Source of the DNA: a virus
Virus record (IMG/VR): IMGVR_UViG_3300023284_001597
Coordinates: 1 to 36,801 of that record
DNA: 36,801 nt
Reading direction: 5' to 3' (one strand)
How positions within the stretch are numbered: the first letter of the stretch is position 1; every line of letters starts with the position of its first letter. The notes beneath the pieces are model-generated. The model saw only the letters and a list, made by a program, of their open reading frames with translations. It did no database searches and was not told the DNA's origin. Below, one piece after another: positions 20,556 through 34,115 of the stretch. The position numbers and the translations under genes are program-made.

Positions 20556-21061
20556 GAAAGTTTTTAAAATGGTTTTTATTTCTGGTAGCAAGTGTTCTTT
20601 TAGTATGTTTCTTTTTGAACAAATATTGTCATGCTGATCGTGGGGTTACTATCTATAGTTCCTACTATAGCTCCGCACATATTTCAGGTGTGATAGGTAA
20701 TTATAATGAAAATTACGATTTAGAGTTTGGTGGTTACATATCTGGCAACAATTCGTCTCCCCGTACCGGCGTCACTAATTATTTAATGCAGGGTAACTTA
20801 AAGGTACAGTTAAACGATAAAACGTGGTTTCTATATGGTTTATCTGCCGAGATTTTCACGGCAGGCATTGTAAAGGGGGTTTCATATACTGGAACATCTT
20901 ACGGGCCGTATGTGGGAATAGAACGGCGTTTAGATGATAATTTACGGTTGAGGGCTCTGTATCATCCGGTCTATATTTCCTCGTTTGATATCGGTGGGGT
21001 TAAAACCGATATAACCGATTTCGGTTTAAACGGGGCTTTTGGACTGACCTACATTTTTTAA
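20552..21061 (+). CDS. Outer-membrane beta-barrel-like protein
   Basis: 169-aa protein with a signal peptide (KFLKWFLFLVASVLLVCFFL, likely cleaved after CHA). The mature part has alternating hydrophobic strands with aromatic girdles (DLEFGGYISG, YGPYVGIERRLDDNLRLRAL, LNGAFGLTYIF) and ends in Phe, the usual outer-membrane insertion signal. About eight strands fit. Such barrels in phages can change surface receptors or block superinfection. Located at the end of the lysis operon; its stop lies in the first recombination-like site (21061). Host is therefore probably Gram-negative. Confidence 0.65.
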   Translation: MRKFLKWFLFLVASVLLVCFFLNKYCHADRGVTIYSSYYSSAHISGVIGNYNENYDLEFGGYISGNNSSPRTGVTNYLMQGNLKVQLNDKTWFLYGLSAEIFTAGIVKGVSYTGTSYGPYVGIERRLDDNLRLRALYHPVYISSFDIGGVKTDITDFGLNGAFGLTYIF

Positions 21062-21088
21062 TGTCTTGAATTGCCCATTACAGGAAAT
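21061..21088. repeat. dif-like site S1 (11-6-11)
   Basis: Plus strand: arm ATGTCTTGAAT, spacer TGCCCA, arm TTACAGGAAAT. It contains the stop codon of the minus-strand gene 21078-21428, and its first base is the last base of the outer-membrane gene's stop codon. The second arm is almost the same as in S2 (TTACGGGAAAT); the first arm keeps ATGTC. Confidence 0.6.
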
Positions 21089-21428
21089 CGGGTTTATTTT
21101 TATTTAAAATTCTTTCGACAATTTTGTTAGAAATTTTTCTTCTATCCTGCACATCTTTAGAATCTGGATCGTTGCTATCTCCAAGCCACATTTTTGGGCT
21201 TTTCGAGTAAGCTCGTTTCAATCTATCAAATCTTTCTGAATACTGGAATTCAGCATTGTAGATTAGGGTAGGTTTTTTATTTTCTATTTTACCCCTCCTT
21301 AAATCGGAAAATGCCATCCTGTCAAAAATCATCAAAGAATCCATTGCGCAAATGGCATACCTCATTTCATTCATAGTTGGGATTTTTCCGTCCTTACACA
21401 TTTCTATTATTTTCCCCAAAGTTTTCAT
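21078..21428 (-). CDS. Accessory protein in a site-flanked cassette
   Basis: 116-aa protein, not recognised by function. It resembles small phage/host proteins with pattern LGKIIEMCKDGKIPTMNEM then RYAICAMDSLMIFDRMAF and a basic C terminus. It is bracketed by dif-like sites S1 and S2 in the same orientation, with the stop TAA in S1 and the GAGAGGAG ribosome site just inside S2. It is therefore a self-contained module at the end of the par-like operon. No helix-turn-helix or catalytic motif is visible. Confidence 0.7.
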   Translation of the reverse strand: MKTLGKIIEMCKDGKIPTMNEMRYAICAMDSLMIFDRMAFSDLRRGKIENKKPTLIYNAEFQYSERFDRLKRAYSKSPKMWLGDSNDPDSKDVQDRRKISNKIVERILNKNKPDFL

Positions 21429-21444
21429 TCCCTAACTCCTCTCA

Positions 21445-21472
21445 ATGTCCCATAACCCAAATTACGGGAAAT
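21445..21472. repeat. dif-like site S2 (11-6-11)
   Basis: Plus strand: arm ATGTCCCATAA, spacer CCCAAA, arm TTACGGGAAAT. In the gene direction the arm TTATGGGACAT plus the next 8 bases (TGAGAGGA) is identical over 19 bases to the sequence at 31580-31598. It lies 8 bases beyond the stop of the zinc-finger gene (21480). Confidence 0.75.
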
Positions 21473-21479
21473 GAAGCAT

Positions 21480-21641
21480 TCAATCATCCTTACATCCTCG
21501 TTCAATACTAGCAAAATTTTTAATGGTTAGTAGATTTGTTTTTTTATTATCTTTTCCAAGGTGTTTATGATGGTAACAAAATTTAAAATTCATAGGGATT
21601 GGGTCCTGACACTCTTTACAGAAATGTCGCCATTCACCCAT
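21480..21641 (-). CDS. 53-aa zinc-finger-like protein
   Basis: Short gene starting in a TAATG overlap with the stop of the ribbon-helix-helix gene. The protein begins MGEWRHFCKECQDPIP and continues FKFCYHHKHLGK, giving C-x2-C and C-x2-HH, a treble-clef/zinc-ribbon layout. Coupling and Cys/His spacing make this a real gene. It may bind DNA or RNA alongside the par-like proteins. Function unknown. Confidence 0.65.
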   Translation of the reverse strand: MGEWRHFCKECQDPIPMNFKFCYHHKHLGKDNKKTNLLTIKNFASIERGCKDD

Positions 21642-21856
21642 TATTTTATCTTCCCTGAAAAGTATTGTTCAAGAGCCTCTTGCACGATATTAGATACAGA
21701 AATTCCATCTCGATCAATTTTCATTCGGTTAATCTTTTTATCAATATCACGGGTAACAAAATATGACCGCTTGATAATTTCAGGTTGTTTTGGTTTTGGT
21801 TTTAAAAAATCATGGGTGCCGATGTTTTCCATTGGGTTTCTTGGATTTTTATTCAT
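21641..21856 (-). CDS. Ribbon-helix-helix DNA-binding protein (ParG/CopG-like)
   Basis: 71-aa protein. The C-terminal half RSYFVTRDIDKKINRMKI then ISVSNIVQEALEQYFSG has the beta strand, helix, turn, helix order of ribbon-helix-helix proteins; the N-terminal 30 residues are a Pro/Lys-rich flexible tail as in ParG. Encoded in the same operon as the ParA-like protein, it is the natural centromere-binding and autorepressor candidate. Overlaps the YopX gene by 8 bases. Direct repeats at 23536-23581 could be its target. Confidence 0.72.
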   Translation of the reverse strand: MNKNPRNPMENIGTHDFLKPKPKQPEIIKRSYFVTRDIDKKINRMKIDRDGISVSNIVQEALEQYFSGKIK

Positions 21857-22241
21857 CAGGTTTTTCCAGTAGTTCTGGGTTATCGTGGATATTACCGATT
21901 TTTTCTAATTCATCTTCTTCATATTGATCTAAATCGCAACCGTCGGTAGATCCGATCATTTGAATATAAATCGAACCCTTACCGAATTTCACAACACTTC
22001 CTCCAAACTCCTCTTCTTTAATGACATCCCCCTCATAAATCTCTCTCCCGTCCTTGTCTTTTTTATCGATGTATTGACCTACCGTTTTAGGATCGACAGC
22101 AAACCCCTTTGATCTTCCGAGACTGACATTGTACGAGTCAGGTAAAAAGATCGACACCTGACCTTCCGAACAGTGCATAAGATCACCGTAAACCCATTCA
22201 CCAGTTTCAATATTTATACCCCTAAACTTTCTCTCACGCAT
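21849..22241 (-). CDS. YopX family protein (copy 1)
   Basis: 130-aa protein with the YopX signature RKFRGINIETGEWVYGDL, KTVGQYIDKKDKDGREIYEG and DVIKEEEFGG. YopX proteins are common in phages and have no established role. It lies between parA and the ribbon-helix-helix gene, 2 bases after the parA stop, which is unusual for a partition operon. A second, diverged YopX gene is at 33670. Confidence 0.85.
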   Translation of the reverse strand: MRERKFRGINIETGEWVYGDLMHCSEGQVSIFLPDSYNVSLGRSKGFAVDPKTVGQYIDKKDKDGREIYEGDVIKEEEFGGSVVKFGKGSIYIQMIGSTDGCDLDQYEEDELEKIGNIHDNPELLEKPDE

Positions 22242-22243
22242 CT

Positions 22244-23020
22244 TTATTTCACCCTTTGAGCCAATTCCAAAGCAAATGATTCATAATCAAGGGAACCTCT
22301 AGAGGTACTATCATACAGTCCTATTGGGACAGCAGACTCGGCAGCAGCGCACAGAGTCTTATTTGTCCGAATAATCGTATTAAACAAAAGAGCCTTAAAC
22401 CCACTTATTTTCACCTTTTCAAGTTGCTTTACATCCTGAGTATGCCCCTTATTAAACATTGTCATAAGTATGCCAAGCATGTTCGGGCAAACATTGTAGT
22501 CTGTTTTGATTGTGTTGATGGTTTTTAACAGTTTTGGGAATCCCTCAAGTGCAAGATATTGGGCCTGCATAACCACAACAAAATCAGTGCTTGCTATGAG
22601 AGCGTTTAGACTAGGTAGTCCGATGGTACCCTTGCAGTCAATTAAAACAAAGTCATAATTTAATTTATTGGCTTTGAAAAATCCGGATAAAACATTTTGT
22701 GCTATCCCATTGTTTACCGGTCGCCATTTTAAAGTAATGCCGGCTAATCTGTCGTCTCCTGTTATAACGTCGACGTCGTACTTAGAGATAATGTCTTTTT
22801 TGGGATTAAACCCACTGTAAAAAATATCGTATGCCGTAAACGTGTGCGGATTATCAACATGCCCGTTCCCTAGTCCTATAATAGACGTTGCGCTGGCTTG
22901 TGGGTCTAAATCTATAAGAAGGACGCGATATTGCGCCTTAGCGAGGAAATAGGCGGTGTTTACCACTGTTGTCGAGTTTCCGACTCCCCCTTTTTCATTT
23001 ATGAAGGATATTATTCTCAT
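22244..23020 (-). CDS. parA: ParA-like ATPase with altered P-loop
   Basis: 258-aa protein of the MinD/ParA group. The N terminus has the deviant Walker A layout but reads KGGVGNSTT: the P-loop Lys expected at residue 15 is Asn (codon AAC). The signature Lys10 is kept. Other ParA features are intact: VLLIDLDPQASAT near residue 35, DFVLIDCKGTIGL near 125 and an LALEG loop near 155. If the sequence is right, ATP binding or hydrolysis should be impaired. It is coupled by ATGA to an upstream membrane peptide and lies in one operon with a ribbon-helix-helix protein, as in type I partition. Confidence 0.85.
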   Translation of the reverse strand: MRIISFINEKGGVGNSTTVVNTAYFLAKAQYRVLLIDLDPQASATSIIGLGNGHVDNPHTFTAYDIFYSGFNPKKDIISKYDVDVITGDDRLAGITLKWRPVNNGIAQNVLSGFFKANKLNYDFVLIDCKGTIGLPSLNALIASTDFVVVMQAQYLALEGFPKLLKTINTIKTDYNVCPNMLGILMTMFNKGHTQDVKQLEKVKISGFKALLFNTIIRTNKTLCAAAESAVPIGLYDSTSRGSLDYESFALELAQRVK

Positions 23021-23187
23021 AAATCAACCATATTCCAACCGTCTAAAAATATAATACATGCCAACCGCGTAAAAATACCCAAAAATATAATTCCGACGAC
23101 TAACATACATACAACGAGGAAGGAGCAAAATATAAACTTGATTGTTACTCGAACAATTTTTTTAGCTTCTTGCATTTCCTGTCTCAT
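23017..23187 (-). CDS. 56-aa single-span membrane peptide coupled to parA
   Basis: Short gene: MRQEMQEAKKIVRV, then one hydrophobic segment (about residues 18-48, FIFCSFLVVCMLVVGIIFLG and on) and a short polar end. It starts in an ATGA overlap with the 93-aa gene and ends in an ATGA overlap with parA, and GAGGAGAGAG lies 7-16 bases before its ATG. Two coupled overlaps and a strong ribosome site make it a real gene. Function unknown; it could anchor the ParA-like protein at the membrane. Confidence 0.7.
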   Translation of the reverse strand: MRQEMQEAKKIVRVTIKFIFCSFLVVCMLVVGIIFLGIFTRLACIIFLDGWNMVDL

Positions 23188-23465
23188 GTTAATCTCTCTC
23201 CTCTCTTAGATACCCCGTAGATTGCTGCGGGGGGTATGTCATTTTCTAACAATTGATCCATTTGATGTCTTGATATAAAATCTCGTCGAAATATTTTTGA
23301 TAAGATCCATAAGATAGGATATATAGTACTGCTTGTCTCAAACCATTTTGAAAATTCAGGATCTAAATTTCTCAGTGTAATCCGCTTTCCTGATTCCTTT
23401 AACTTTGTAATTCTTCTATTATATTCTTCTTTGGTTAGTGCACGTGGCGGTATTATTAATCCCAT
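23184..23465 (-). CDS. First gene of the par-like operon, unknown
   Basis: 93-aa basic protein with a Pro-rich start (LIIPPRALTKEEYNRRITKL) and a central SSTIYPILWILSKIFRR segment. No known fold was recognised; the N terminus resembles short basic regions of DNA-binding adaptors. It leads the operon and is coupled to the membrane peptide by ATGA. AAAGGA lies upstream. A ParB or regulator role is conceivable but unsupported. Confidence 0.6.
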   Translation of the reverse strand: MGLIIPPRALTKEEYNRRITKLKESGKRITLRNLDPEFSKWFETSSTIYPILWILSKIFRRDFISRHQMDQLLENDIPPAAIYGVSKRGERLT

Positions 23466-23508
23466 TATTTTAAATCCTTTCTTATAGCATTTTTCTCATT
23501 TCAAGCCC

Positions 23509-23537
23509 ACAATACAACACATAGAATAAAAGAACAA
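23509..23537 (-). promoter_or_regulatory. Promoter of the par-like operon
   Basis: On the minus strand: -35 TTGTTC (23532-23537), 17-base spacer, -10 TATTGT (23509-23514). It is placed about 45 bases before the ATG at 23465. The -35 overlaps the first direct repeat, so a protein bound there would repress. Confidence 0.45.
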
Positions 23538-23581
23538 GTATTTATTTCTTTATGAGAGTAAGTATTTAATTATTCATAAGA
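23536..23581. repeat. Two 22-bp direct repeats at the par promoter (operator/centromere candidate)
   Basis: Copies at 23536-23557 and 23560-23581 agree at 18 of 22 positions and start AAGTATTTA. Their 24-base spacing is close to two helical turns. They contain an imperfect TCTTTATGA/TCATAAGA dyad. This is the expected layout for a ribbon-helix-helix operator that also serves as a partition site. Confidence 0.5.
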
Positions 23582-23590
23582 ATAAATATA

Positions 23591-23851
23591 TTAATCTTTT
23601 TCTTTGCTCAACTTTTGCAATGAATATGTTTTTCTATGGATTAATCTATACCCACGTCTTTTAAGAAACTTTTCTAGTGAAACGTCAGAAACCTTATATT
23701 TTTCCAAGAAACGCTCTTTAATACCGAAGTTATTTATTTCTTCTAAAATCGATTCAACACTCTCTGGAAGTTTCTTATATTTAGGTTTTTGTCCTGATCG
23801 TCCTTTTATTCCTGTCATAGGTAACATGTTAGGGGAAAAGCATTTTTTCAT
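23591..23851 (-). CDS. Basic putative DNA-binding protein
   Basis: 86-aa protein with GRSGQKPKYKKLPESVESIL and a following FLEKYKVSDVSLEKFLKRRGY that looks like a helix-turn-helix. Unidentified. Starts at ATG 23851, 23818 (MTGIKGRSG) and a TTG at 23917 are all possible; none has a clear Shine-Dalgarno. It is divergent from the replication gene and could regulate it. Not part of the par-like operon, being separated by 125 bases with its own promoter region. Confidence 0.55.
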   Translation of the reverse strand: MKKCFSPNMLPMTGIKGRSGQKPKYKKLPESVESILEEINNFGIKERFLEKYKVSDVSLEKFLKRRGYRLIHRKTYSLQKLSKEKD

Positions 23852-23933
23852 GTAGTTTGCCAATCCAATTAAATTGACTTGTGTTTGGAAAATGTATAGT
23901 CTTGATTTTGAAAGCAAGACTGATTGGTTAAAT

Positions 23934-23962
23934 TTGTACTGATCTGAATTAATTGCTAGTAT
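23934..23962 (+). promoter_or_regulatory. Promoter for the replication gene
   Basis: -35 TTGTAC (23934-23939), 17-base spacer, -10 TAGTAT (23957-23962). It would give a leader of about 185 bases before the ATG at 24155, which holds the repeats described next. Confidence 0.4.
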
Positions 23963-23970
23963 AAAAAAAA

Positions 23971-24016
23971 TCTCACTCCGTAATGTTGTGAGAAATCACA
24001 AACAAAGGAAGTGAGA
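23971..24016 (+). promoter_or_regulatory. Leader with TCTCAC and two GTGAGA elements
   Basis: TCTCAC (23971-23976) can pair with GTGAGA at 23988-23993 or at 24011-24016, giving alternative hairpins upstream of the replication gene. A dual-fold leader or a protein/antisense target controlling initiator level is possible. No open frame with a good start covers 23963-24154. Confidence 0.35.
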
Positions 24017-24154
24017 AGGAAAAAAAGATATTAATATTTTTTGTCTTGCTTTTTGTTGTTCTGCCGAGTTCAATTTTAAAGCGTTACCTTGATTCTATTG
24101 CCAAATGGCTTTGCATGTCAAGACGGGAATCCTAGTATCTTTTTCCGGAACATT

Positions 24155-25144
24155 ATGGAAAATTTAACAGTTAAGGAAAGAAAAACTAAAACAGGGGGAG
24201 AGAGAAACGGTCCGAGGACCAAAACGAAGTTTTACACAAAGGTCGAGGATGATATATACGACCTGTTTGTGGAGAAGGATGTACGCCTGACCTACAGGAT
24301 GATTTATATGGCACTGTCGGGATGTATGATTCCAAACAGCGAATTTGCAGAGGTGAAATTTAAAGCCCTGAGAATAAAATCTGGTGCCGGTTCCGATAGC
24401 ACCCTTACGGCAGCGCTCAAAGAATTGTCGAAAAAGGGTTTTATATCAAAAATGGGCGGCTCGACATACCGGCTTTGGCATTGCGTTTATAAAGGCGTCC
24501 GAGAAAATGAGAAAGAATACTCGGAGCTCAAGGAATCCACTACACCCAGTGTAGTAGCTGCCACTACACTGGGTGTAGTGCCTCATGTACGCGTCCTTTC
24601 ATGTCAATTAACAAAAGAACAGCAACACGAAACCGACGACGTTAATTTTAAAAATTTAACTTTTGGGGAGGGATCACCATTTAAAAATGATATTCCCATT
24701 TGGCAGTGGAGGTCTTGGATAAAAAAATACAATTTTGAATGGTGCCAAAAAATGGTTGAAGAATTGGAATGTGCCTATGGTAAGAATTACGAAAAAATAA
24801 AGTCACCCGTCAAACTTATGGCAAAGGGCCTAACAGACGGCAAACAGTGGCAACTCGAACGCAAGAGGCTTGAGGATGCCAAAAAATTTGAAGAGGAATT
24901 GGCAAAGAAAAAAGAACAGGAAAAACACATGGATCGTATACTGGAAAAAGAGCGAATGGAAAGAGACATAGAGAACGAAAAAAATGATTTAGACTACGCA
25001 GAGGCCATTAAGCAGCCGTATTTGATTGAACGGGCCATAGAATGTTTGGAGGCATCTGGAATTTTCCCAAAAGAAGGTAGTGACTGTTATCCAATTTTGT
25101 TGAGGCATAAAGTGGTTAAGGAATATCAGGAGGCGTTGATATGA
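24155..25144 (+). CDS. rep: Replication initiator (winged-helix, Rep/O-like)
   Basis: 329-aa protein. Residues 20-120 look like a winged-helix domain (KFYTKVEDDIYDLFVEKDVR, LKELSKKGFISKMGGSTYRL). The C-terminal half is charged coiled coil (KKKEQEKHMDRILEKERMER). The centre of the gene holds a perfect long inverted repeat (24538-24580) followed by an AT-rich stretch, as in lambda O, whose origin lies inside the gene. ATG 24155 is chosen; TTG 24089 would add 22 codons and has no ribosome site. The 65-aa gene downstream is coupled by ATGA. Confidence 0.7.
   Translation: MENLTVKERKTKTGGERNGPRTKTKFYTKVEDDIYDLFVEKDVRLTYRMIYMALSGCMIPNSEFAEVKFKALRIKSGAGSDSTLTAALKELSKKGFISKMGGSTYRLWHCVYKGVRENEKEYSELKESTTPSVVAATTLGVVPHVRVLSCQLTKEQQHETDDVNFKNLTFGEGSPFKNDIPIWQWRSWIKKYNFEWCQKMVEELECAYGKNYEKIKSPVKLMAKGLTDGKQWQLERKRLEDAKKFEEELAKKKEQEKHMDRILEKERMERDIENEKNDLDYAEAIKQPYLIERAIECLEASGIFPKEGSDCYPILLRHKVVKEYQEALI
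24538..24580. repeat. Perfect 18-bp inverted repeat in rep, candidate origin
   Basis: Left arm 24538-24555, 7-base loop, right arm 24563-24580; the arms are exact reverse complements. Each arm is itself a dyad: ACTACAC, 3 bases, GTGTAGT. So there are four ACTACAC half-sites in alternating orientation. The region 24641-24662 is AT-rich (TAATTTTAAAAATTTAAC) and could be the unwinding element. Coding is still intact (TTPSVVAATTLGVVP). Confidence 0.65.
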
Positions 25145-25338
25145 AACCCATTGATTTAGAACGGAAGGATAGGGTGTTGGACTTTACAAGCTATGCGTTA
25201 ACCACCCAAAAAAATAACAAGGATAGTTGGATGGTCGGATTTGTTTCTAAGGCAAACGCAATGTTTTCTAGTTTAGGTCAAAATAGGCGGTTGAGATATA
25301 AGGGAGATAAGATTCAGGACTTAAACCAAACCCTATAG
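25141..25338 (+). CDS. Small protein after rep, unknown
   Basis: 65-aa basic protein coupled to rep by ATGA, with AGGAGG in the end of rep. No recognised motif; the C terminus is Lys/Arg-rich (QNRRLRYKGDKIQDL). Could be a replication accessory factor by position. It converges on the small minus-strand gene with only 3 bases between the stops. Confidence 0.5.
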   Translation: MKPIDLERKDRVLDFTSYALTTQKNNKDSWMVGFVSKANAMFSSLGQNRRLRYKGDKIQDLNQTL

Positions 25339-25341
25339 TTT

Positions 25342-25536: not shown

Positions 25537-25612
25537 AAATTTATAGTATAGGAATTTATTTTATATATCAACAGTGCAGAACTATAACAGAGGAATTGAA
25601 TACAATAAACTA

Positions 25613-25641
25613 TTGATTATACATCGGCATTGCTGTACTAT
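25613..25641 (+). promoter_or_regulatory. Strong promoter for the recombination/early operon
   Basis: -35 TTGATT (25613-25618), 17-base spacer, -10 TACTAT (25636-25641). It drives genes from 25674 to about 29605, all on the plus strand. The 64-aa helix-turn-helix gene is divergent from it. Confidence 0.6.
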
Positions 25642-25673
25642 AGACTTATCAAATAAAGAAAGGGAGTGATTAG

Positions 25674-25886: not shown

Positions 25887-25901
25887 AGTAAAAAGGCCCC
25901 A

Positions 25902-26545: not shown

Positions 26546-27475
26546 ATGAAGAGTATGGAATTGACCACAGAAATGGAACAGGATACAGCCTTATATGACG
26601 ACAAGGCAATGACCCCTGAAAGTCTCAGAGAACATGTGACCCATATCCAGAAAATAATGAAATCCGTCATGAAAGAGGGCGCTCATTATGGGACGATCCC
26701 AGGGACCAAAAAACCAGGGCTATGGAAACCAGGGGCGGAGATACTACAACTCACCTTTGGAATCAGTATCTCAGTGGAAATTGAGGACAAGTCCACAGAG
26801 GATGCCGTTAGGATTCGGGTTAAGGCCACAGCAACGCATCGTAAGAATGGTACCGTACTAGGTAGTGCTTACGGCGAGGCCAGTTCAAATGAGGAAAAGT
26901 ACAAATGGCGTGCAGCAGTATGCCAGGAGGAATTTAACAAGACACCGGAACTCAAAAAGAGGGTGAAGTACAAGAGGAAGTACAAAAGCAAGGAGATCGA
27001 AAAGGTAAACCAGGTCAAAACTGAGCCTGCCGATATTGCTAATACGGTACTCAAAATGGCTGAGAAACGGGCAGTCATTGGAATTACCATAAGAGTCACT
27101 GCGGCATCAGATGTATTCGACCAATCAGAATACGATGATAACGGGTCAGCGCAGTCCGGTAATGGTCAAACTTCGCAAGTTCAATCCCATCCGAAGGATG
27201 TCTCTCAACCCAAACCGTACCAAGCACCCCAACCACAGTACCAGCAAGCACCGTCACCACCAGACATAGGGTCGGGGTATCTCAGTTATGCCAATGGGGT
27301 GTTCTTTTGGACCGGCCCTATCGAAACAAAGGAGATCCCAAAAGGTGCAGGCATGAGATGGAATGCGGACTACAAGAAATGGCAAACTGAAGATTTCAAT
27401 GTTGCCAAAAAACTGGCTGAATATGCCGACAGTGCAGCACAAGCACAAATGACGGAAGTACCAGCTAATGGCTAG
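26546..27475 (+). CDS. Probable ssDNA-annealing/recombination protein with HARP-like tail
   Basis: 309-aa protein. Residues 40-70 show MKEGAHYGTIPGTKKPGLWK and a following PGAEILQLTFGI, and residues 160-185 show NTVLKMAEKRAVIGI; these two motifs mark a widespread phage family of probable DNA-binding or Rad52-like annealing proteins. A Pro/Gln-rich linker leads to a C-terminal segment KGAGMRWNADYKKWQTED, resembling the short HARP-like motif of some helicases. The gene is followed by a RecB-type nuclease, the normal partner of an annealing protein. ATG 26546 is chosen over TTG 26531. Confidence 0.6.
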   Translation: MKSMELTTEMEQDTALYDDKAMTPESLREHVTHIQKIMKSVMKEGAHYGTIPGTKKPGLWKPGAEILQLTFGISISVEIEDKSTEDAVRIRVKATATHRKNGTVLGSAYGEASSNEEKYKWRAAVCQEEFNKTPELKKRVKYKRKYKSKEIEKVNQVKTEPADIANTVLKMAEKRAVIGITIRVTAASDVFDQSEYDDNGSAQSGNGQTSQVQSHPKDVSQPKPYQAPQPQYQQAPSPPDIGSGYLSYANGVFFWTGPIETKEIPKGAGMRWNADYKKWQTEDFNVAKKLAEYADSAAQAQMTEVPANG

Positions 27476-28073
27476 AGAGACCTTTAAATACGCCCCTGGT
27501 TTGGAGTACGACGACCCCGAACATAAGTACTACTACCAAGGGGCTGCTCTGCCTGGTGTGACTGGCACACTTGAATATGTCGGCCTATCTGATTTCTCAT
27601 TCGTTGACAATGAAACGCTCACCAGAGCAATGCTTTTTGGCACGGCGGTTCATTCATTAACGGAGTTTGATGATAAGGGAATTTTGGGAGAATACGACCC
27701 AAAACTACAACCAGCACTAACGGCTTGGCGAAACTTTAAAAAAGACTTACGGGTTGAAATATTACCCGAGTACATCGAATTGAAAGTTTTCAACAAGGCT
27801 CACCGTTACGCTGGAACGCTTGATCGTATTTTCATGGTGGATGGCACCTACTGGCTGATTGACATAAAAACAGGCGGTCATGTGAAATCACATGCCATTC
27901 AATGTGCTGCTTATGAGGCAGCGTTTAGGAATCTATTTGGATACAGGAAGAAAATAAAAAGAGCCTGTGTTTACATAGATGGAGACAAGTACAAGGTAAA
28001 AGAACATAACGGTGTCGGGGATTGGACAATGTTTCAATCAGCCCTGAATATCGCAAACTACATGAGGAGATAA
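27468..28073 (+). CDS. PD-(D/E)XK exonuclease (RecB/Cas4-like)
   Basis: 201-aa nuclease. Motifs in order: GTAVHSL (His62), IELKVF (Glu104), GTLDRIF (Asp119), LIDIKTG (Asp132, Lys134) and IQCAAYEAAF (Gln145, Tyr149). This is the complete RecB-family set. It probably trims DNA ends for the annealing protein 8 bases upstream, making a two-gene recombination module. ATG 27468 overlaps the previous stop; length is normal for phage exonucleases. Confidence 0.85.
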   Translation: MARETFKYAPGLEYDDPEHKYYYQGAALPGVTGTLEYVGLSDFSFVDNETLTRAMLFGTAVHSLTEFDDKGILGEYDPKLQPALTAWRNFKKDLRVEILPEYIELKVFNKAHRYAGTLDRIFMVDGTYWLIDIKTGGHVKSHAIQCAAYEAAFRNLFGYRKKIKRACVYIDGDKYKVKEHNGVGDWTMFQSALNIANYMRR

Positions 28074-28078: not shown

Positions 28079-28828
28079 ATGAAAACAACAACGACTAGAC
28101 CATTATTTCAGACAGAGATGGAATCATCGCAAAGTGAATTGGAAGTACAGAGGCCTGAAAATGTGACAATTGAAATGGCAGACAAAGCAAAGGAGGCAGA
28201 AGCCATTTTACAAAAGGCGCAAACACTGACTATCTCAAACGAGGAACAGTTCAGTAACGCCAGCAATATTTTGACTGTTGTTAAGATACGGTACAAGGAA
28301 ATAGAGGCAGATCGGCAGACGATTACAAAGCCTATGAATGATGCACTCAAGGCCGTTAATGCTTATTTCAGTCAACCCAAGATATTACTAGGCCAAGCTG
28401 AGAACATTTTGAAATCGGGGATCGTTAAATTCAGGACCTATCAGGAAATGAAAGCTCAGGCCGAACAAGCCAGGATTAATGAGATAGCTCGTCAGAAAGC
28501 AGAGAAAGATCAGGCAATACTTGAGAAGAAAGCGCAGCAAGCCGAGAAAAAAGGTGAGGAAGAAAAGGCCATGGAATTACGGCAGGTGAAAGATACCGTC
28601 GTGCCAGTGGCACCCCTTGTCCAACCCACGGTTATCAAAGGGGCAGGGCAATCATTTCGAAGTGTTTGGAAATGGGAAGTCACGGATACGTCAGCAATAC
28701 CACGGCAATATTTGACTTTGGATGAGAAGCAAATAAACGCGATAGCAAGGGGTGGTATCCAGGGCGCAATGCATATCCCAGGCATCAAATTTAGGGAGGA
28801 AAAGCAATTAGCGGTTAGGGTGGGGTAG
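28079..28828 (+). CDS. Coiled-coil recombination-accessory protein
   Basis: 249-aa protein. Residues 25-180 form long coiled coil (KAKEAEAILQKAQTL, AEKDQAILEKKAQQAEK). The C-terminal 60 residues have KWEVTDTSAIPRQYLTLDEK and IPGIKFREEKQLAVR, a domain common next to phage annealing proteins. AGGAG precedes ATG 28079; an in-frame start at 28022 would overlap the nuclease gene. Likely a partner in recombination or replication, role not established. Confidence 0.6.
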   Translation: MKTTTTRPLFQTEMESSQSELEVQRPENVTIEMADKAKEAEAILQKAQTLTISNEEQFSNASNILTVVKIRYKEIEADRQTITKPMNDALKAVNAYFSQPKILLGQAENILKSGIVKFRTYQEMKAQAEQARINEIARQKAEKDQAILEKKAQQAEKKGEEEKAMELRQVKDTVVPVAPLVQPTVIKGAGQSFRSVWKWEVTDTSAIPRQYLTLDEKQINAIARGGIQGAMHIPGIKFREEKQLAVRVG

Positions 28829-28880
28829 TAAATTAGGGGGGGACACCACAAGTGATAAATAAAAACGGAGGTAAAAGAAC

Positions 28881-29138
28881 ATGGCAATAGGACAACGACC
28901 AACAGGACAACGACCAACAGGACAACGACCAACAGGACAACGATCATACAAGGATAATTTAAGAAGGCTAGAACCGTTTGTTAAGAAATACGGGGTACCT
29001 CAAAAAACACCCACTGATTTGGGCCAAGGACGGTCCATGATGACTCCCCCTCTAATATTTCGGATAATCGGAAAGGTTTTACGGTGGCTATTTATTGAAT
29101 TGCCCAATTTGACTAGAGATAGAAGGCAGGAAAATTAA
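28881..29138 (+). CDS. Small protein with GQRPT repeats
   Basis: 85-aa protein: the N terminus is three exact copies of GQRPT plus a degenerate fourth (GQRSY), from 15-base tandem repeats. The remainder is a basic helix and a C-terminal amphipathic stretch (FRIIGKVLRWLFIELPN) that could touch membrane. CGGAGG precedes the start. Role unknown. Confidence 0.5.
   Translation: MAIGQRPTGQRPTGQRPTGQRSYKDNLRRLEPFVKKYGVPQKTPTDLGQGRSMMTPPLIFRIIGKVLRWLFIELPNLTRDRRQEN
28890..28945 (+). repeat. 15-bp tandem repeat in a coding sequence
   Basis: Three perfect copies of GGACAACGACCAACA (28890-28934) and a partial fourth. The repeat keeps the frame and adds GQRPT each time, so copy number can vary without breaking the gene. 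Confidence 0.85.
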
Positions 29139-29142
29139 GAAG

Positions 29143-29298
29143 ATGAGAAAAAAAACAAGTGTTAAAGTTTATGGGGTGTATATAGAAGCTTTTGCAAGAA
29201 CAATTAGTTTTAAAGAAGCAAAAGAAAGGACACAGAAACTTCTTGATCTTATTAGTTGGGAAAGTAGAAAAAAAGTTAACAGGATCAACCATGACTGA
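29143..29298 (+). CDS. 51-aa basic protein, unknown
   Basis: Small gene: MRKKTSVKVYGVYIEAF, then KEAKERTQKLLDLISWES. A short beta hairpin then a helix is likely. It is five bases after the previous stop and its end (CATGACTGA) carries the ATG of the next gene. No function recognised. Confidence 0.45.
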   Translation: MRKKTSVKVYGVYIEAFARTISFKEAKERTQKLLDLISWESRKKVNRINHD

Positions 29299-29461
29299 AT
29301 TTATAATCGAGATCATTAAAAAAATCCCACCTCAAGCATTCCCCATGTGTCTTATTATACTAGACGCATGCGCTGCCACAATTTGGATGGCTCACGGGAA
29401 TGTGAGGCAAGCAATTTACTGGATGGCTGCTGGTGTCCTTACCGCTATAGTGACCTTTTGA
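29291..29461 (+). CDS. 56-aa two-span membrane peptide
   Basis: MTEFIIEIIKKIPPQ followed by two hydrophobic segments (FPMCLIILDACAATIWMA and AIYWMAAGVLTAIVTF). It starts within the previous gene's end. The layout recalls small phage inner-membrane proteins such as antiholins, but it lies in the recombination operon, not the lysis operon. An upstream frame start at 29192 is discounted. Confidence 0.5.
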   Translation: MTEFIIEIIKKIPPQAFPMCLIILDACAATIWMAHGNVRQAIYWMAAGVLTAIVTF

Positions 29462-29481
29462 TATCTGGAGTTGAGACAATA

Positions 29482-29605
29482 ATGAAAAAAATAATAGCTA
29501 CATTTGAAAAAAAAAGAATGTTTTTGTGACGGATGTTTTCTCTACTGGCAGAAAAATGGGTTTCCTGATGGGTGGTTAGATAAGTTTGAAAAGTTTTGGC
29601 GATAG
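29482..29605 (+). pseudogene. Frameshifted small zinc-ribbon gene (or recoded at A9)
   Basis: From ATG 29482 the frame ends after 15 codons at 29527. Another frame, entered by dropping one A from the A9 run at 29507-29515, gives KKECFCDGCFLYWQKNG then FPDGWLDKFEKFWR, a clearly protein-like Cys-containing ending to 29605. In that frame TTG 29504 is the only start. Either a sequence or natural deletion/insertion in the run, or recoding like that proposed for the tail chaperone. Confidence 0.4.
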
Positions 29606-29778
29606 GAAATAAAATAATACCGCTGGCCCCGAGTTTGCTAGTCTACACTTCGCGAATGTATTTATGCATTATGCATTATGAACTCTAACATCGGGATCAT
29701 CGGTGGCATTATTGTATCACTATGAAAGCGTTGTACGTCTATGGTTTTTTATTGATATAGGTTTCGCCAGGCATAAAA
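29606..29778. other. Intergenic, no clear feature
   Basis: Nothing firm is seen. It has a short direct repeat (ATGCATT twice, near 29669-29686) and several tiny frames of 10-15 codons. It lacks a tRNA cloverleaf or clear terminator. It separates the plus-strand early operon from a minus-strand gene that converges on it. Confidence 0.5.
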
Positions 29779-30162
29779 TTAACCTTTAAAAATTAGCTCT
29801 AAAATTCTGATAGCTTCTTTTGTTCGAAAACTGTCATCCTGTAATCTCTCATCTTTGAGATTATCGTATAGAAGCATTGCTACGTTTGCTACATATCCTA
29901 ACTTCATTCCTTCGTCATTGAAAATTCTGTCGTACATAAGAGTCCTTAAATCTTTAAGCGGTATTTCTTTTGTTCCCCAAGACACAACCATTTTCTCGTA
30001 ATATTTCAATATTTCACTGTATAATTTGGCTCTTACGTTGTTATCTTTTTCCCCTTTTATTCGTTCGCGATAAATTTTTAATTTTTTCCTGTATTCGTTT
30101 AGGTTTTCATCAATAGGTTCAGGCGGTGGATCTGGGAGAGGTAAACTTTTTGTATCAGGCAT
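29779..30162 (-). CDS. Accessory protein, unknown, under operator control
   Basis: 127-aa acidic/basic helical protein: Pro-rich start (LPLPDPPPEPIDENLNEY), then long helices (YRKKLKIYRERIKGEKDN, ILKYYEKMVVSW). AAGGAG precedes ATG. No family recognised. Its promoter region holds a perfect 11-bp palindrome, so it is tightly regulated with the divergent gene at 30361. Confidence 0.55.
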   Translation of the reverse strand: MPDTKSLPLPDPPPEPIDENLNEYRKKLKIYRERIKGEKDNNVRAKLYSEILKYYEKMVVSWGTKEIPLKDLRTLMYDRIFNDEGMKLGYVANVAMLLYDNLKDERLQDDSFRTKEAIRILELIFKG

Positions 30163-30193
30163 TTTGTTACTCCTTGGGTTTTATTAGTAGATT

Positions 30194-30221
30194 ATAGCAT
30201 AAAACGATCGTTTATTGCTAT
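30194..30221. promoter_or_regulatory. 28-bp near-palindrome with central AAACGATCGTTT
   Basis: ATAGCA at one end and TGCTAT at the other enclose a perfect 12-bp palindrome AAACGATCGTTT; four of 28 positions do not pair. Lies between the operator at 30234 and the 127-aa gene. A second operator or a binding site for a dimer is likely. Confidence 0.5.
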
Positions 30222-30233
30222 TTTTGAAATCCA

Positions 30234-30256
30234 GTTGTTCGGAATTTCCGAACAAC
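30234..30256. promoter_or_regulatory. Perfect palindromic operator
   Basis: GTTGTTCGGAA, one central T, TTCCGAACAAC: an exact 11-bp inverted repeat. It lies just downstream of the minus promoter -10 (30263-30268), a position that blocks transcription. It is a strong candidate for the binding site of a phage repressor not yet identified. Confidence 0.65.
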
Positions 30257-30262
30257 TCAAAC

Positions 30263-30291
30263 ATTATAGCAAAAACTCAAGCAGAAATCAA
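30263..30291 (-). promoter_or_regulatory. Promoter toward 30162
   Basis: Minus strand: -35 TTGATT (30286-30291), 17-base spacer, -10 TATAAT (30263-30268). Both elements match the consensus closely. A second minus-strand TATAAT at 30191-30196 has no good -35. Confidence 0.65.
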
Positions 30292-30301
30292 ATAGCATTT
30301 A

Positions 30302-30331
30302 TTGACATAGTTTTACGTTTGCCGCTATAAT
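30302..30331 (+). promoter_or_regulatory. Promoter toward 30361
   Basis: -35 TTGACA (30302-30307), 18-base spacer, -10 TATAAT (30326-30331): near-perfect sigma-70 promoter. It is divergent from the minus promoter and about 45 bases from the palindromic operator, so both may be controlled together. Confidence 0.75.
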
Positions 30332-30360
30332 GTATTTATAAAACAAAAGGAGAATAACTA

Positions 30361-30546
30361 ATGGATAAAGATTTAGAATACTTGAACTCGAAGGGGCAGT
30401 TAACATGTAAACCGTATGTACCCTGTACTAGAAAGATTGAGAATGATAATGAGGGAATTATTGATTGGGATAATCCTTCAAAAAAAATTATTCAAGATGG
30501 TAGGAAAATGGGGAAAAGACTAGCTAGGGATGCCTGGAAAATATAG
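30361..30546 (+). CDS. 61-aa protein, possibly truncated by frameshift
   Basis: MDKDLEYLNSKGQLTCKPYV, two Cys, then a basic C terminus ending in RLARDAWKI. AAAAGGAG precedes the ATG. Right after its stop the next frame stays open for 28 codons with protein-like composition; adding one A to the AAAA at 30539-30542 would join the two. So the gene may be a truncated form of an 89-aa protein. Confidence 0.5.
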   Translation: MDKDLEYLNSKGQLTCKPYVPCTRKIENDNEGIIDWDNPSKKIIQDGRKMGKRLARDAWKI

Positions 30547-30630
30547 GTTTTGCTTTAACAGGAAAGAAACACACAAACAAACAAGCAGATGAATTAATCA
30601 AATCTGCTAGAGAAAATATAAAGGAGGATT
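30547..30630 (+). pseudogene. Out-of-frame remnant of the 30361 gene
   Basis: Open reading in a shifted frame: GFALTGKKHTNKQADELIK then SARENIKED, stop at 30630. It has no start of its own and continues naturally from the preceding basic helix. The end carries AAAGGAGG, the ribosome site of a 19-codon frame (30638-30697). Confidence 0.35.
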
Positions 30631-30689
30631 AAATTCTATGGATCAGCACAAAATAAAGACATTAAATTTTAAAGAGAGGTGGATTATTA

Positions 30690-30938
30690 ATGGGTGAATG
30701 GATAAAAAAAACTAATGTTGGGGAATCTCACGTTTCTACAGTAAGACTTACTGTACATCACCCAAAATGTTTATTGGCGCGATTACCAGGACCCTATGAA
30801 ACCATGATATTTGGAGGGAAAAACGATGAATTTTCTATTCAACATCAAACTAAAGAAGAAGCCATTAATTTTCATAATAAAATAATAATTTGTATTCGTT
30901 CTGGACTAGATTGCGAAAATTTGGATTATAATGTCTGA
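30690..30938 (+). CDS. Small protein before the serine recombinase, unknown
   Basis: 82-aa protein MGEWIKKTNVGESHVSTVRL with a central HHPKCLLARLPGPYETMIFG and a Cys-containing end. AGAGAGGTGG precedes it. Overlaps the recombinase gene by 8 bases, so they are expressed together. No fold recognised. Confidence 0.5.
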   Translation: MGEWIKKTNVGESHVSTVRLTVHHPKCLLARLPGPYETMIFGGKNDEFSIQHQTKEEAINFHNKIIICIRSGLDCENLDYNV

Positions 30939-31563
30939 ACTTATAGGATGGGCAAGAGTATCAACAGCAGACCAGAACCTAGACTCACAAATTGACGAGC
31001 TAAAAAAGGCAGGCTGCAAGAAAATATTTTTTGCCAAAGTATCCGGCGCAAAGGAAGAAATCAAAGAATTACAAAAAGCAATAGAATACATGAGGCCAGG
31101 TGATACGTTGGTTGTCACAAAGCTATCACGGCTCCACAGGTCCATGCTTAAAGGCATCCGGTTGTTAGATGAATTCAAAGAAAAAAAGGTTAGCATTAAA
31201 ACATTGAAAGATGGTGTTGATACCAGCACGAAGGGAGGCGAATTTATTTATGTCCTATTGTCATTGATGGCTGAATGGGACAGAGAAAATATTAGAGAGA
31301 ATACCAGGGCCGGTCTATTATCGGCACGAAAGAGAGGCAAGGTTGGTGGCCGTCGTAGGATATTAACGCAGAAGATGATAGAAGAAATGGTTAAAATGTC
31401 CAAGGATATAAACCAACCGATAGCTCACATTCTAAAGATTTTCGGCATTGCTGAACGAACCTATCATAACTATCTGAAAGAATATAAAGATGGTGTTTTA
31501 TGGTTCCAGGATGGTTACGAGGAATTTAAGAAGGCATCTAGGGAAACGGGCGGTGAAAAATAA
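30931..31563 (+). CDS. Serine recombinase (resolvase/invertase)
   Basis: 210-aa protein. Catalytic Ser11 in WARVSTADQN, Arg67/Arg70 in KLSRLHRS, and ENIRENTRAGLLSARKRG at the end of the catalytic domain, followed by a helix-turn-helix tail (ILKIFGIAERTYHNYLKE). It could resolve genome dimers, invert a segment, or integrate. Its stop TAA lies at the first base of dif-like site S3. Confidence 0.88.
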   Translation: MSELIGWARVSTADQNLDSQIDELKKAGCKKIFFAKVSGAKEEIKELQKAIEYMRPGDTLVVTKLSRLHRSMLKGIRLLDEFKEKKVSIKTLKDGVDTSTKGGEFIYVLLSLMAEWDRENIRENTRAGLLSARKRGKVGGRRRILTQKMIEEMVKMSKDINQPIAHILKIFGIAERTYHNYLKEYKDGVLWFQDGYEEFKKASRETGGEK

Positions 31564-31590
31564 TGACCTGTAAATTATGTTATGGGACAT
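31563..31590. repeat. dif-like site S3 (11-6-11)
   Basis: Arm ATGACCTGTAA, spacer ATTATG, arm TTATGGGACAT. The second arm plus the next 8 bases (to 31598) is identical to the sequence next to S2 over 19 bases. It separates the serine recombinase from the nuclease gene. The flank GAGAGGA supplies the ribosome site for the nuclease. Confidence 0.75.
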
Positions 31591-31611
31591 TGAGAGGATG
31601 TGGCTATTTTC

Positions 31612-32172
31612 ATGGCTGTAGTTTTGGCGAGTAAGAAAATTTTGATGAGCAAAAAAAAGAGGCCCAGTTTTAATGCTGAAAATTTAAAATTTGCCTTGAT
31701 GGACCATTACCGCAATACCAAAGGGTTTGATATTACTTGTACTGAGTTTATGTATGGACGGTGCGACGTAGCGGCTATCAATGAAAAAGAATTTATTGAT
31801 TTTGAGGTCAAGGTATCAATTTCCGACCTAAATCGTGACAAAAAAAAATCGAAACATATTGAATATGAAAAAGCCGCGAAAGGACTGTTACCCTATGGAA
31901 AATATTGTATGCCAAATAAATTCTACTTTGCTGTGCCTGAACTTATCGCTGACCATGCAGTTAAAATTTGTTTGAAGATAAACCCAAAATATGGAGTCAT
32001 TACGTTCGACGAAGTAAACGGAGTGTTATGGCCCAGGGTCGTAAGACGAGCTAAAAAATTAAAACCAGAGCCTCCCTGCAAAAACCTGATATTAATAGGC
32101 TGTAAAAGATTATCATATGATAATTTGGTTTTTCGTAGGAAAATGATGGGTATTAAACCCAATGTCCTGTAG
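31612..32172 (+). CDS. PD-(D/E)XK-like nuclease (MmcB-like) in a cassette
   Basis: 186-aa protein. Pattern GRCDVAAINEKEFIDFEVKV gives Asp52, Glu65 and Lys67 in D-x12-ExK spacing, then a conserved SDLNRDKKKSKHIEY and NKFYFAVPELIADHAVKI. This matches a group of restriction-endonuclease-like DNA repair/defence proteins. It lies between dif-like sites S3 and S4, its stop TAG being in S4. ATG 31612 is chosen; ATG 31645 (MSKKKRPSF) and GTG 31600 are possible. Confidence 0.72.
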   Translation: MAVVLASKKILMSKKKRPSFNAENLKFALMDHYRNTKGFDITCTEFMYGRCDVAAINEKEFIDFEVKVSISDLNRDKKKSKHIEYEKAAKGLLPYGKYCMPNKFYFAVPELIADHAVKICLKINPKYGVITFDEVNGVLWPRVVRRAKKLKPEPPCKNLILIGCKRLSYDNLVFRRKMMGIKPNVL

Positions 32173-32186
32173 GCATTAGAGGACTT
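32162..32186. repeat. Degenerate dif-like site S4 at the nuclease 3' end
   Basis: ATGTCCTGTAG holds the stop codon, then GCA, then TTAGAGGACTT. Arms match the family at many positions but the spacer is 3 bases and one stop base has changed. It also forms a weak hairpin (GTCCT with AGGAC, then TTTT), which may serve as a bidirectional terminator against the convergent recombinase. Confidence 0.45.
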
Positions 32187-32195
32187 TTATACCTA

Positions 32196-33167
32196 TCAAT
32201 TCTCCAAATCCCGATTAAGGGCTTCAATTGGAGTTCTTGTTTTAACCGATACTTGCTGGAGATATTCCACAGTGGTGGCTACTTTTTCATGGTTTAGATG
32301 TGAGCGTGTGGTATAGATATCGTTACTGTGCTTCTGTACTGAATACCCTGATAAATTACGGATACCGTGAATAGTAACATGGCTCTTTTTGCCAGTTACT
32401 GTCTCATAATATGTCCTTAATAGGTTGTTGGGTACACGTTGATCCAGTTTTGTTTTGCTGTGTTCTGATAGGTTGCGTTTACTGGTAAAAATGTAGTCAT
32501 CTGATTCTTTTTTTTCTATGATCTTTAATTCTTGAACTAACACATATAGGCTCTTTAAAAACTCTTTCGTGACCCTTTTCCCACCTTTCACTGTTGTTTG
32601 ATATACAAGCATTTCGTTTTCCTCAAAGATGTTGGAATGTTTTAAGTTCAGGACCTCCATTTTACGCAGACCCGTAACATAAAAAATTTTAAACATGATC
32701 AAATCTCTCAAGTATTTGGAGTATTTAAGACGATCTTTATAGCGCATCTTTTTTTCAATATGGAATAATATTTTGTTGAAATTCTCAAGATTGATAACAT
32801 TGATGTTTTCGTAGGGTTTCTGCTTGATGGTCCGGTATCTAAATCTCTTTCCGATATATTTCAGCAGTGTCCTAACGTGGCTTATTCGTTGAGCGTAAGT
32901 GTTTTTTGAGATTCCCGTCTCCTTTAGATGTAACTGGTAGTCAATAATTGTTTTTTGATCTACCGAAGACAACGCAATCCCTTTATCTCTAATAAAACAG
33001 GAGAAATTAGCCAGGTTTCGTTTCATCATCACAATAGATGTTTCAGCATAAGGGACTAAAAACCCAGGGTCGCTCTCTAAAAAGGATTCTATCGAGTCTA
33101 AATTATCCGTATTTTCCGTGCACATTTCATTGATCGGAAACAGATAGTTATTGTTTTTGGGTTTCAA
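32196..33167 (-). CDS. Tyrosine recombinase (Xer-like)
   Basis: 323-aa recombinase with all catalytic residues: Arg168 (TGLRKMEVLNL), Lys194/197 (TVKGGKRVTK), His267 and Arg270 (HGIRN), His293 (LNHEKVATTVEYL) and Tyr302. The N-terminal 130 residues are the SAM-like core-binding domain. Length and layout match XerC/D and phage integrases. A 27-bp dyad (33284-33310) lies 117 bases upstream. It could act on that dyad, on the dif-like cassette sites, or in dimer resolution. Confidence 0.9.
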   Translation of the reverse strand: MKPKNNNYLFPINEMCTENTDNLDSIESFLESDPGFLVPYAETSIVMMKRNLANFSCFIRDKGIALSSVDQKTIIDYQLHLKETGISKNTYAQRISHVRTLLKYIGKRFRYRTIKQKPYENINVINLENFNKILFHIEKKMRYKDRLKYSKYLRDLIMFKIFYVTGLRKMEVLNLKHSNIFEENEMLVYQTTVKGGKRVTKEFLKSLYVLVQELKIIEKKESDDYIFTSKRNLSEHSKTKLDQRVPNNLLRTYYETVTGKKSHVTIHGIRNLSGYSVQKHSNDIYTTRSHLNHEKVATTVEYLQQVSVKTRTPIEALNRDLEN

Positions 33168-33283
33168 TTCAATGCATCTCCAATCTTTGGTCTATACTAA
33201 CATACCCCGTACTTAAGTATATTCAACTAAATAAAGCGTGGATTTAACAATTCTTAGATGTTGATTTTGCTTCTTTGTTTTAT

Positions 33284-33310
33284 GTCAATATAACCCTACA
33301 TTATATTGAC
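33284..33310. repeat. 27-bp dyad, candidate recombinase core site
   Basis: GTCAATATAA, 7-base spacer CCCTACA, TTATATTGAC: exact 10-bp arms with ATAA and TTAT facing the spacer, as in Xer core sites. It is not the same sequence as the cassette sites. Minus-strand TTGACA in its left arm might also act as a -35 box, but no matching -10 is seen. Confidence 0.55.
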
Positions 33311-33537
33311 TTCTTTTGTAGCTAGGTTCATAAAATTGCGTTTTTGTCGCTTGGAAAAATGGATTTAGCCTCAAAGAGGGTGTTGGTGGATTTTATGGTG
33401 GTTAACCTTTTTGGGTCGGAAATAGGCACGAATAAGAGAGATTGAAAAACGCTTACTACAACTTTGTGTTTTTTGGGTGTGGTTTGGGATTATGGTTTGC
33501 TCTTTTGACTGTTTTTGACCATACGATAGGTGCCTGG

Positions 33538-33566
33538 TTGAATATATATCAGCAATGATGTATTAT
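33538..33566 (+). promoter_or_regulatory. Promoter toward the second YopX gene
   Basis: -35 TTGAAT (33538-33543), 17-base spacer, -10 TATTAT (33561-33566). AGGAGG and a 13-codon frame follow at 33587-33641, then the YopX gene. Confidence 0.55.
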
Positions 33567-33599
33567 AAAGGTCAGATAAGTTGTTAGGAGGATACACCT

Positions 33600-33641
33600 A
33601 TGAGCAATTGGATTGATGTAAATAAACACCTTATCTTGTAA
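33600..33641 (+). pseudogene. 13-codon remnant (DUF551-like start) ending in a site arm
   Basis: MSNWIDVNKHLIL, with a strong TAGGAGG ribosome site. The first residues (W-I-x-V-x-x-x-L) match the common start of DUF551-like phage proteins, but the frame ends at TAA within dif-like site S5. It looks like an eroded gene whose 3' end was at the site, or a short leader peptide. Confidence 0.35.
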
Positions 33642-33653
33642 GTTATGGGACAT
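33631..33653. repeat. Degenerate dif-like site S5
   Basis: TTATCTTGTAA, one base, TTATGGGACAT. The second arm is exact (as in S2 and S3); the spacer is shortened to 1 base, so the site is probably not active in its present form. The ribosome site GCGAGG of the YopX gene follows. Confidence 0.5.
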
Positions 33654-33669
33654 CGAAAGCGAGGTTAAA

Positions 33670-34098
33670 ATGAGAGGAACTAAGTTTAAGGGTAAATGTA
33701 TTGAAACTGGGAAATGGGTGTATGGTGATCTTATTTATGGTGAATATATCTACCCAACCTCGAGCGGCCAACCTCTTGATATGGGTGAGTATTTAGATAT
33801 AAGGGCGGTTGAAGTCTATCCAAAATCAGTGGGACAATACACCGGACTCAAAGACAAGAACGGAAAAGAGATTTATGAGAGGGATATTGTAAATTGGAAT
33901 TCCGAAGATTTTAATATGAGTATTATTTTTCATGAGGGAACATTTTTAGCCATTGCCTCATCTTCAGTATATGAACCTGGGAATAGGCTATTTTATCCGC
34001 GCTCACAACATGGATCGCCAAAATGGAGCGAATTTGTAATATTGGGAAACAAACTTGAAGGGATTAACCGGAGCCTTATCGAATCCAATGTCCTGTAA
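33670..34098 (+). CDS. YopX family protein (copy 2), cassette gene
   Basis: 142-aa YopX protein: GTKFKGKCIETGKWVYGDLI, KSVGQYTGLKDKNGKEIYER and DIVNWN match copy 1 only in the core. It is flanked by sites S5 and S6 and its stop TAA is inside S6 (ATGTCCTGTAA). GCGAGG precedes the ATG. Role unknown; YopX proteins are often the first gene of accessory islands. Confidence 0.85.
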   Translation: MRGTKFKGKCIETGKWVYGDLIYGEYIYPTSSGQPLDMGEYLDIRAVEVYPKSVGQYTGLKDKNGKEIYERDIVNWNSEDFNMSIIFHEGTFLAIASSSVYEPGNRLFYPRSQHGSPKWSEFVILGNKLEGINRSLIESNVL

Positions 34099-34115
34099 TG
34101 GGTAAAAGTGCATAT
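34088..34115. repeat. dif-like half-site S6
   Basis: ATGTCCTGTAA (with the YopX stop), spacer TGGGTA, then AAAGTGCATAT, which shares little with the other second arms. The first arm is exact as in S4 except for the last base. Treat as a half-site. Confidence 0.45.

Follow-up and report, generated by a model that had tools for sequence, protein, structure and literature searches.

How can a phage gain a single accessory gene so precisely that the neighbouring genes stay unbroken? Such gains are mostly unexplained, and the question is raised by a 36,801-nt stretch of viral DNA (IMG/VR record IMGVR_UViG_3300023284_001597; hereafter the window), which is a complete-looking phage genome with a 144-bp terminal repeat and genes for a large terminase, a major head protein, ParA and two recombinases. 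In this window the start and the stop of three unrelated genes, encoding a 116-residue protein, a nuclease-like protein and the second of two YopX copies (YopX2), are marked by copies of one short repeat, S1 to S6. The bracketing looks like the seams of genes that were gained one at a time, and we give about an even chance to the explanation that the repeats bound insertions of one gene each, which recombination joined at short repeats of the gene ends. With the start and the stop of unrelated genes marked by one repeat, the seam can be tested. Should a recombinase act on this repeat, the locus would amount to a compact cassette system different from both integrons and plasmid dif (pdif) modules; otherwise it would clearly exemplify general recombination at repeats located at gene ends.

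All six sites or half-sites that a first-pass annotation of this DNA had claimed were recovered (Table 1), and its central observation is real. The three genes are bracketed by the same repeats in one orientation, far beyond what chance produces, and in all three the upstream repeat stops immediately before the Shine-Dalgarno sequence while the downstream repeat contains the stop codon. Read in the gene direction, the left end of each unit is GTTATGGGACAT followed by T or C, GA and the Shine-Dalgarno sequence. The right end is AAACCCAATGTCCTGTAAT, and each unit finishes with A-A-A/T-C/T-CC-A/G-AT-G/T-TCCTGTA-A/G. The start-side GTTATGGGACAT and the stop-side ATGTCCTGTAA are near reverse complements of each other, and as search patterns the unit ends can be written GTTATGGGACATYGA for the start side and ATGTCCTGTAR at the stop codon. 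The proposed layout of two 11-bp arms around a 6-bp spacer (11-6-11) holds for S2 and S3, which are intact 28-bp sites and share, as had been noted, 19 identical bases, and also 32 nt at 88%; it does not hold for S1, S4, S5 and S6. In S1 the left arm is present and the right arm has 5 mismatches in 11 positions. In S5 the right arm is exact (33643-33653), and the left arm TTATCTTGTAA is recognisable only if the spacer is taken as 1 bp.

Across the sites, the arms that face the genes carry 2 mismatches in 66 positions and the outward arms, which have decayed, 20 in 66, a contrast that is partly built in and somewhat inflated because the arm consensus was drawn from the same sites. It fits the ends of units better than it fits operators, in which both halves matter. 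The stop-side repeat is moreover coding, and it is read in the same frame in three unrelated proteins, giving KPDFL in the 116-residue protein, KPNVL in the nuclease-like protein and ESNVL in YopX2. Vibrio-phage relatives of the 116-residue protein (about 49% identity) are without the repeats and end in ILSRVY, and the unbracketed paralogue YopX1 serves as an internal control that also lacks them; therefore, the repeats belong to these gene copies and not to the gene families. The nucleotide homology between YopX1 and YopX2 begins exactly at the start codon (ATG). A short open reading frame (ORF), MGKSAYPRQKVHIPGKGNHQIAET at 34097-34171, has a start that overlaps the stop in S6. Together with the 13-residue ORF at S5, it looks like a remnant of a gene cut at the repeats.

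Table 1. Repeats, bracketed genes and adjoining genes, in window coordinates.
Feature	Positions	Strand	Sequence or remark
S1, stop-side repeat of the 116-residue gene	21061-21088	-	ATTTCCTGTAA at 21078-21088; degenerate outer arm ATTCAAGACAT at 21061-21071
Bracketed gene 1, 116-residue protein, PHROG_21314	21078-21428	-	product ends ILNKNKPDFL
S2, start-side site of the 116-residue gene	21445-21472	-	ATTTCCCGTAA-TTTGGG-TTATGGGACAT, then TGAGAGGAG
YopX1, unbracketed paralogue	21849-22241	-	no repeats
Serine recombinase (resolvase/invertase kind)	30931-31563	+	candidate enzyme; its gene overlaps S3 by one base, the last of the gene and the first of the site
S3, start-side site of the nuclease-like gene	31563-31590	+	ATGACCTGTAA-ATTATG-TTATGGGACAT, then TGAGAGGA
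Bracketed gene 2, 190-residue protein, PHROG_2776	31600-32172	+	product ends IKPNVL
S4, stop-side repeat of the nuclease-like gene	32162-32186	+	ATGTCCTGTAG-GCA-TTAGAGGACTT; 3-bp spacer
Tyrosine recombinase, Xer-like, below family cut-offs	32196-33167	-	candidate enzyme; between S4 and S5
13-residue ORF MSNWIDVNKHLIL	33600-33641	+	stop within the S5 outer arm; resembles the truncated start of a gene
S5, start-side site of YopX2	33631-33653	+	TTATCTTGTAA-G-TTATGGGACAT; 1-bp spacer
Bracketed gene 3, YopX2, 142 residues	33670-34098	+	product ends LIE-SNVL
S6, stop-side repeat of YopX2	34088-34098	+	ATGTCCTGTAA; left arm only, no recognisable outer arm

Could short repeats in AT-rich DNA produce such an arrangement by accident? 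When the 55 genes of the window were scanned, the same three genes ranked top for GTTATGGGACAT on the start side and for ATGTCCTGTAA on the stop side, a coincidence of 1 in 26,235 by simple arithmetic if the two scans are independent. GTTATGGGACAT is the only 12-mer present in three of the upstream regions of these genes, and random sets of windows reach such a triple in 30 of 500 cases. Among gene ends, the best-scoring set of three agrees in 12 of 20 non-stop columns, a level that 1 of 300 control sets reached. The 19-mer common to S2 and S3 is longer than any in 60 shuffled sequences (maximum 18); the longest repeats of the window come from other elements (terminal, tandem). Shuffled sequences contain on average 14.5 11-mers present in three places, and therefore the arms alone prove little. 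The positional evidence is the strong part of the case against chance. In addition, a scan of the 36.8 kb for the generic palindrome TGTCYNNTAA..TTANNRGACA (14 of 16 positions), made independently of the motif private to these sites, matched S2, S3, S4 and S5 only.

In the explanation that we favour, each of the three units would consist of a left end (GTTATGGGACAT and the Shine-Dalgarno sequence), a single reading frame and a right end that supplies the last codons and the stop. The two kinds of end are imperfect inverted repeats of each other, and a head-to-tail arrangement of two units would restore a palindromic site, of which S2, S3 and S5 are examples. The genes were most likely gained or swapped singly through recombination at these shared gene-end sequences, and the likeliest route for the movement of units would be the general recombination machinery of the phage. 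This route would need no special enzyme, because the phage has an exonuclease gene (27468-28073) beside a 314-residue protein that sits where an annealing protein usually lies. A dedicated recombinase acting on the palindromes is also possible. The first-pass annotation had suggested a cassette system built on dif-like sites, and that interpretation is partly supported.

Several observations weigh against gain at gene-end repeats. No related genome was found in which the site is empty or the repeats enclose another gene, and therefore the movement itself was not observed. The system was seen in one phage only, and the start-side repeats taken alone could be regulatory. S4 is a palindrome that doubles as a terminator-like stem followed by TTTT, and the 314-residue neighbour of the exonuclease is without an assigned function.

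Searches for relatives of the system were made at several levels. With exact and gapped site patterns, no contig with the system was found among 2.9 million IMG/VR viral contigs; the matches examined in context lay within other genes or were at chance level, and none was paired. Peptide patterns for the tyrosine recombinase and for the 116-residue gene retrieved no relatives from IMG/VR, the serine-recombinase search gave two distant relatives, and the terminase search led to distant phages only (32-49% identity), the examined loci of which have no sites. Neither a short-query blastn search against phages and plasmids nor a literature search on the arm sequences returned a convincing or relevant match.

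Only one match came from a strict scan of genomes totalling 257 billion bases; it lies in a bacterial WOR-3 metagenome-assembled genome (JAGMCL010000053.1; contig JAGMCL010000053). The site, ATGTCCTGTAA-TTAGAG-TTATGGGACATTGAG, is the exact join of a phage right end and a phage left end in 11-6-11 geometry, with the hybrid ATGTCCTGTAAT-TAGA-GTTATGGGACATTGAG. We estimate that about 0.06 chance matches would be expected for this pattern before four further matching bases are counted; since palindromes occur more often than random sequence, the match may still be a coincidence. The same contig has a second, diverged copy at a distance of 25 kb, and the two copies share 66 bp at 82%. Both 66-bp copies stand ahead of unrelated small ORFs (about 3888-4196 and 28823-29262) and have a common downstream tract AAAAAACACGCAAATACAG, the core of which is found in that genome at these two places only. 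The two small-ORF units are possibly mobile or co-regulated. At the WOR-3 site it is the left arm that faces the gene, unlike at the start-side sites of the phage, an arrangement equally compatible with a promoter element and with a mobile unit. In none of the 146 other WOR-3 genomes was the 66-bp element detected, and near-matches to the site in two others were at control level. WOR-3 was also considered as the host and rejected: the terminase was matched in 1 of 147 genomes (40%), the nuclease in none of the 147, and the tyrosine recombinase by distant Xer-like proteins alone.

A regulatory explanation can draw on the WOR-3 contig, in which 66 conserved bp immediately ahead of two ORFs include the full site. 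On this view the start-side palindromes of the phage would be operators, promoters or mRNA stem-loops for the three accessory genes, and the stop-side half-copies would be terminators, remnants or junctions with a following gene. S2, S3 and S5 are indeed imperfect inverted repeats directly upstream of the ribosome sites of several unrelated genes, and RNA folding gives -12.0 kcal/mol for S2 and -7.7 kcal/mol for S3. Analogues exist in actinobacteriophages. The 17-bp ESAS repeats of Cluster K, which are imperfect and inverted, precede start codons and in Adephagia contain putative promoters (PMC3203893, PMC11373665), and Cluster EG has 18-bp start-associated repeats (PMC7302621). Neither in Cluster K nor in other phages is the role of such repeats proven. 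As in the present phage, these repeats are imperfect, have a short variable spacer and directly precede, in the orientation of the gene, the ribosome sites of accessory genes from various families. Unlike the repeats described here, they have no described stop-side partner, occur in about 7-10 copies per genome and are conserved among sister phages. Regulation leaves unexplained why the stop codons of the same three genes fall within a near reverse complement of the start-side sequence, and it does not account for the decay of the outward arms. Moreover, S1 and S6 form no hairpin, and at S3 only 37 bp separate two genes. We therefore regard a regulatory role as credible but rather unlikely.

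A closer parallel for the bracketing itself is found in the Cluster O mycobacteriophages, where accessory genes such as Corndog gene 14 and YungJamal gene 60 lie between short repeats of which relatives without the gene have a single copy (PMC4351075). Those repeats are 17-bp direct or 24-bp imperfect inverted sequences, with 14 conserved positions in the latter (PMC4351075). The three genes of the window likewise each lie singly, as unrelated accessory genes, between copies of one short repeat at gene junctions. The differences are that in Cluster O relatives show the empty site and every gene comes with a repeat of its own, whereas here three genes share one repeat pair and the stop is always in the downstream copy. 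The case described here combines features of Cluster O and Cluster K, namely a start-side repeat and a stop-side inverted partner that are common to three unrelated genes. The earlier statement that no such family is known in phages was too strong, given the repeat-flanked genes of Cluster O (PMC4351075) and the start-associated repeats of Cluster K (PMC3203893). One may go further and propose that the units are mobile single-gene cassettes of phages, in which terminal inverted repeats supply the stop and the last residues, adjacent ends re-form a 28-bp site, a phage recombinase moves the units and the WOR-3 site records a crossing between phages and bacteria; we consider this full version unlikely.

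Could one of the two recombinases act on the sites? The first-pass annotation had reported a Xer-like tyrosine recombinase and a serine recombinase in this phage, and both genes were identified. The tyrosine recombinase, or XerCD of the host, could recombine the 28-bp sites and so insert or excise single genes. The 11-6-11 geometry is seen in S2, S3 and the WOR-3 site, all with inner ends that read TAA..TTATG, and the right arm TTATGGGACAT agrees at 8 of 11 positions with the XerD consensus, which is TTATGTTAAAT/TTATGTTAATT (PMC10132070). The gene lies between S4 and S5, and its best NCBIfam models are XerA/integron integrase (56 bits) and XerC (55 bits), far below the cut-offs of 220 and 335 bits, respectively. 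Its relatives elsewhere are distant (21-30% identity). As in the dif modules of Acinetobacter plasmids, small unrelated genes are bracketed, and S2 and S3 are 28-bp sites with 11-bp arms and a 6-bp spacer (PMC13141974, PMC10132070). However, exchange between pdif sites requires identical or nearly identical spacers, and in pdif modules the flanking sites are inverse in orientation, with C and D modules alternating (PMC13141974). Here, each gene has unlike spacers at its two ends (TTTGGG/TGGGCA for the 116-residue gene, ATTATG/GCA for the nuclease-like gene, G/none for YopX2), the two end sites of each gene have the same orientation without alternation, each unit holds one gene with its stop inside the site, and the arm sequence is another one. 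Four of the six sites lack the 11-6-11 geometry, and a strict dif reading was rejected on spacing. The sites depart from the pdif definition in their spacing, in arm sequence, in orientation and in spacer identity; the suggested membership of the dif/pdif group is not supported, and Xer-type cassettes are improbable.

A resemblance to integrons had also been suggested, and the units do share with integron cassettes one oriented gene per unit and a reading frame that runs into the repeat. The resemblance goes no further: the recombinase does not reach the level of an IntI match, the attC core (RYYYAAC/GTTRRRY) is absent from the site arms by direct reading, with no attC covariance model run, no long foldable attC is seen by inspection, and the units are spread over 13 kb and not arrayed.

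For the serine recombinase, S2 to S5 would be sub-sites for dimers of a resolvase or invertase, and the genes between them cargo or bystanders. The recombinase gene abuts S3, the generic resolvase-type palindrome picks out exactly S2 to S5, and S1 shares TTTCCTGTAA with the invertase-type site beside the invertase gene of phage P88 (L180). The site lengths of 28 and 25 bp equal those of box I and box III of the Tn3 family, which differ by 3 bp in the spacer (PMC12217951, PMC9943657). Like Tn3 res sub-sites and the crossover sites of serine invertases, the sites are imperfect palindromes of 25-28 bp, one of which is touched by a serine recombinase gene. Unlike those, they are not clustered beside this gene: S2 to S5 lie 0.6 to 10 kb apart, whereas res sub-sites are found together within about 110 bp, and this spacing led to the rejection of a clustered res site. 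Beside the genes of 12 relatives of the recombinase (39-47% identity) the motif was not found, several having other palindromes upstream. We consider this possibility highly improbable. Coincidence is scarcely credible, because, while pairwise repeats of the size of S1/S6 or S4/S6 are near background and triple 11-mers are frequent in shuffles, the joint pattern of the same three genes, both ends, the inverted relation and the shared frame is far outside the controls.

The nuclease-like assignment of the PHROG_2776 protein comes from a weak match to a DNA-repair protein alone. Other features of the window lie outside the bracketed units. A 321-residue protein (34781-35746) matches the candidate defence family PDC-S42 and PHROG_3243, and the phage encodes an HslV/proteasome-like peptidase (35831-36409, PHROG_1040). 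A 30-nt sequence occurs at 33538-33567 and, in inverse orientation, at 36397-36426 (93%), each copy containing a promoter-like TTGAAT-17-TATTAT; one copy stands ahead of the YopX2 region and the other ahead of the HslV-like gene. A consensus promoter, TTGACA-18-TATAAT, is located at 30302-30331. Near-perfect palindromes in non-coding DNA at 30194-30221 (ATAGCATAAAACGATCGTTTATTGCTAT) and 34227-34252 (AAAGTGATACCTATAGGTACCACTTT) are candidate operators or attachment sites. Within coding sequence, a 15-bp tandem repeat at 28885-28944 encodes GQRPT repeats, and a 21-bp inverted repeat (24538-24580, 95% complementary, 1-nt loop) lies in the gene of a 351-residue protein (24089-25144).

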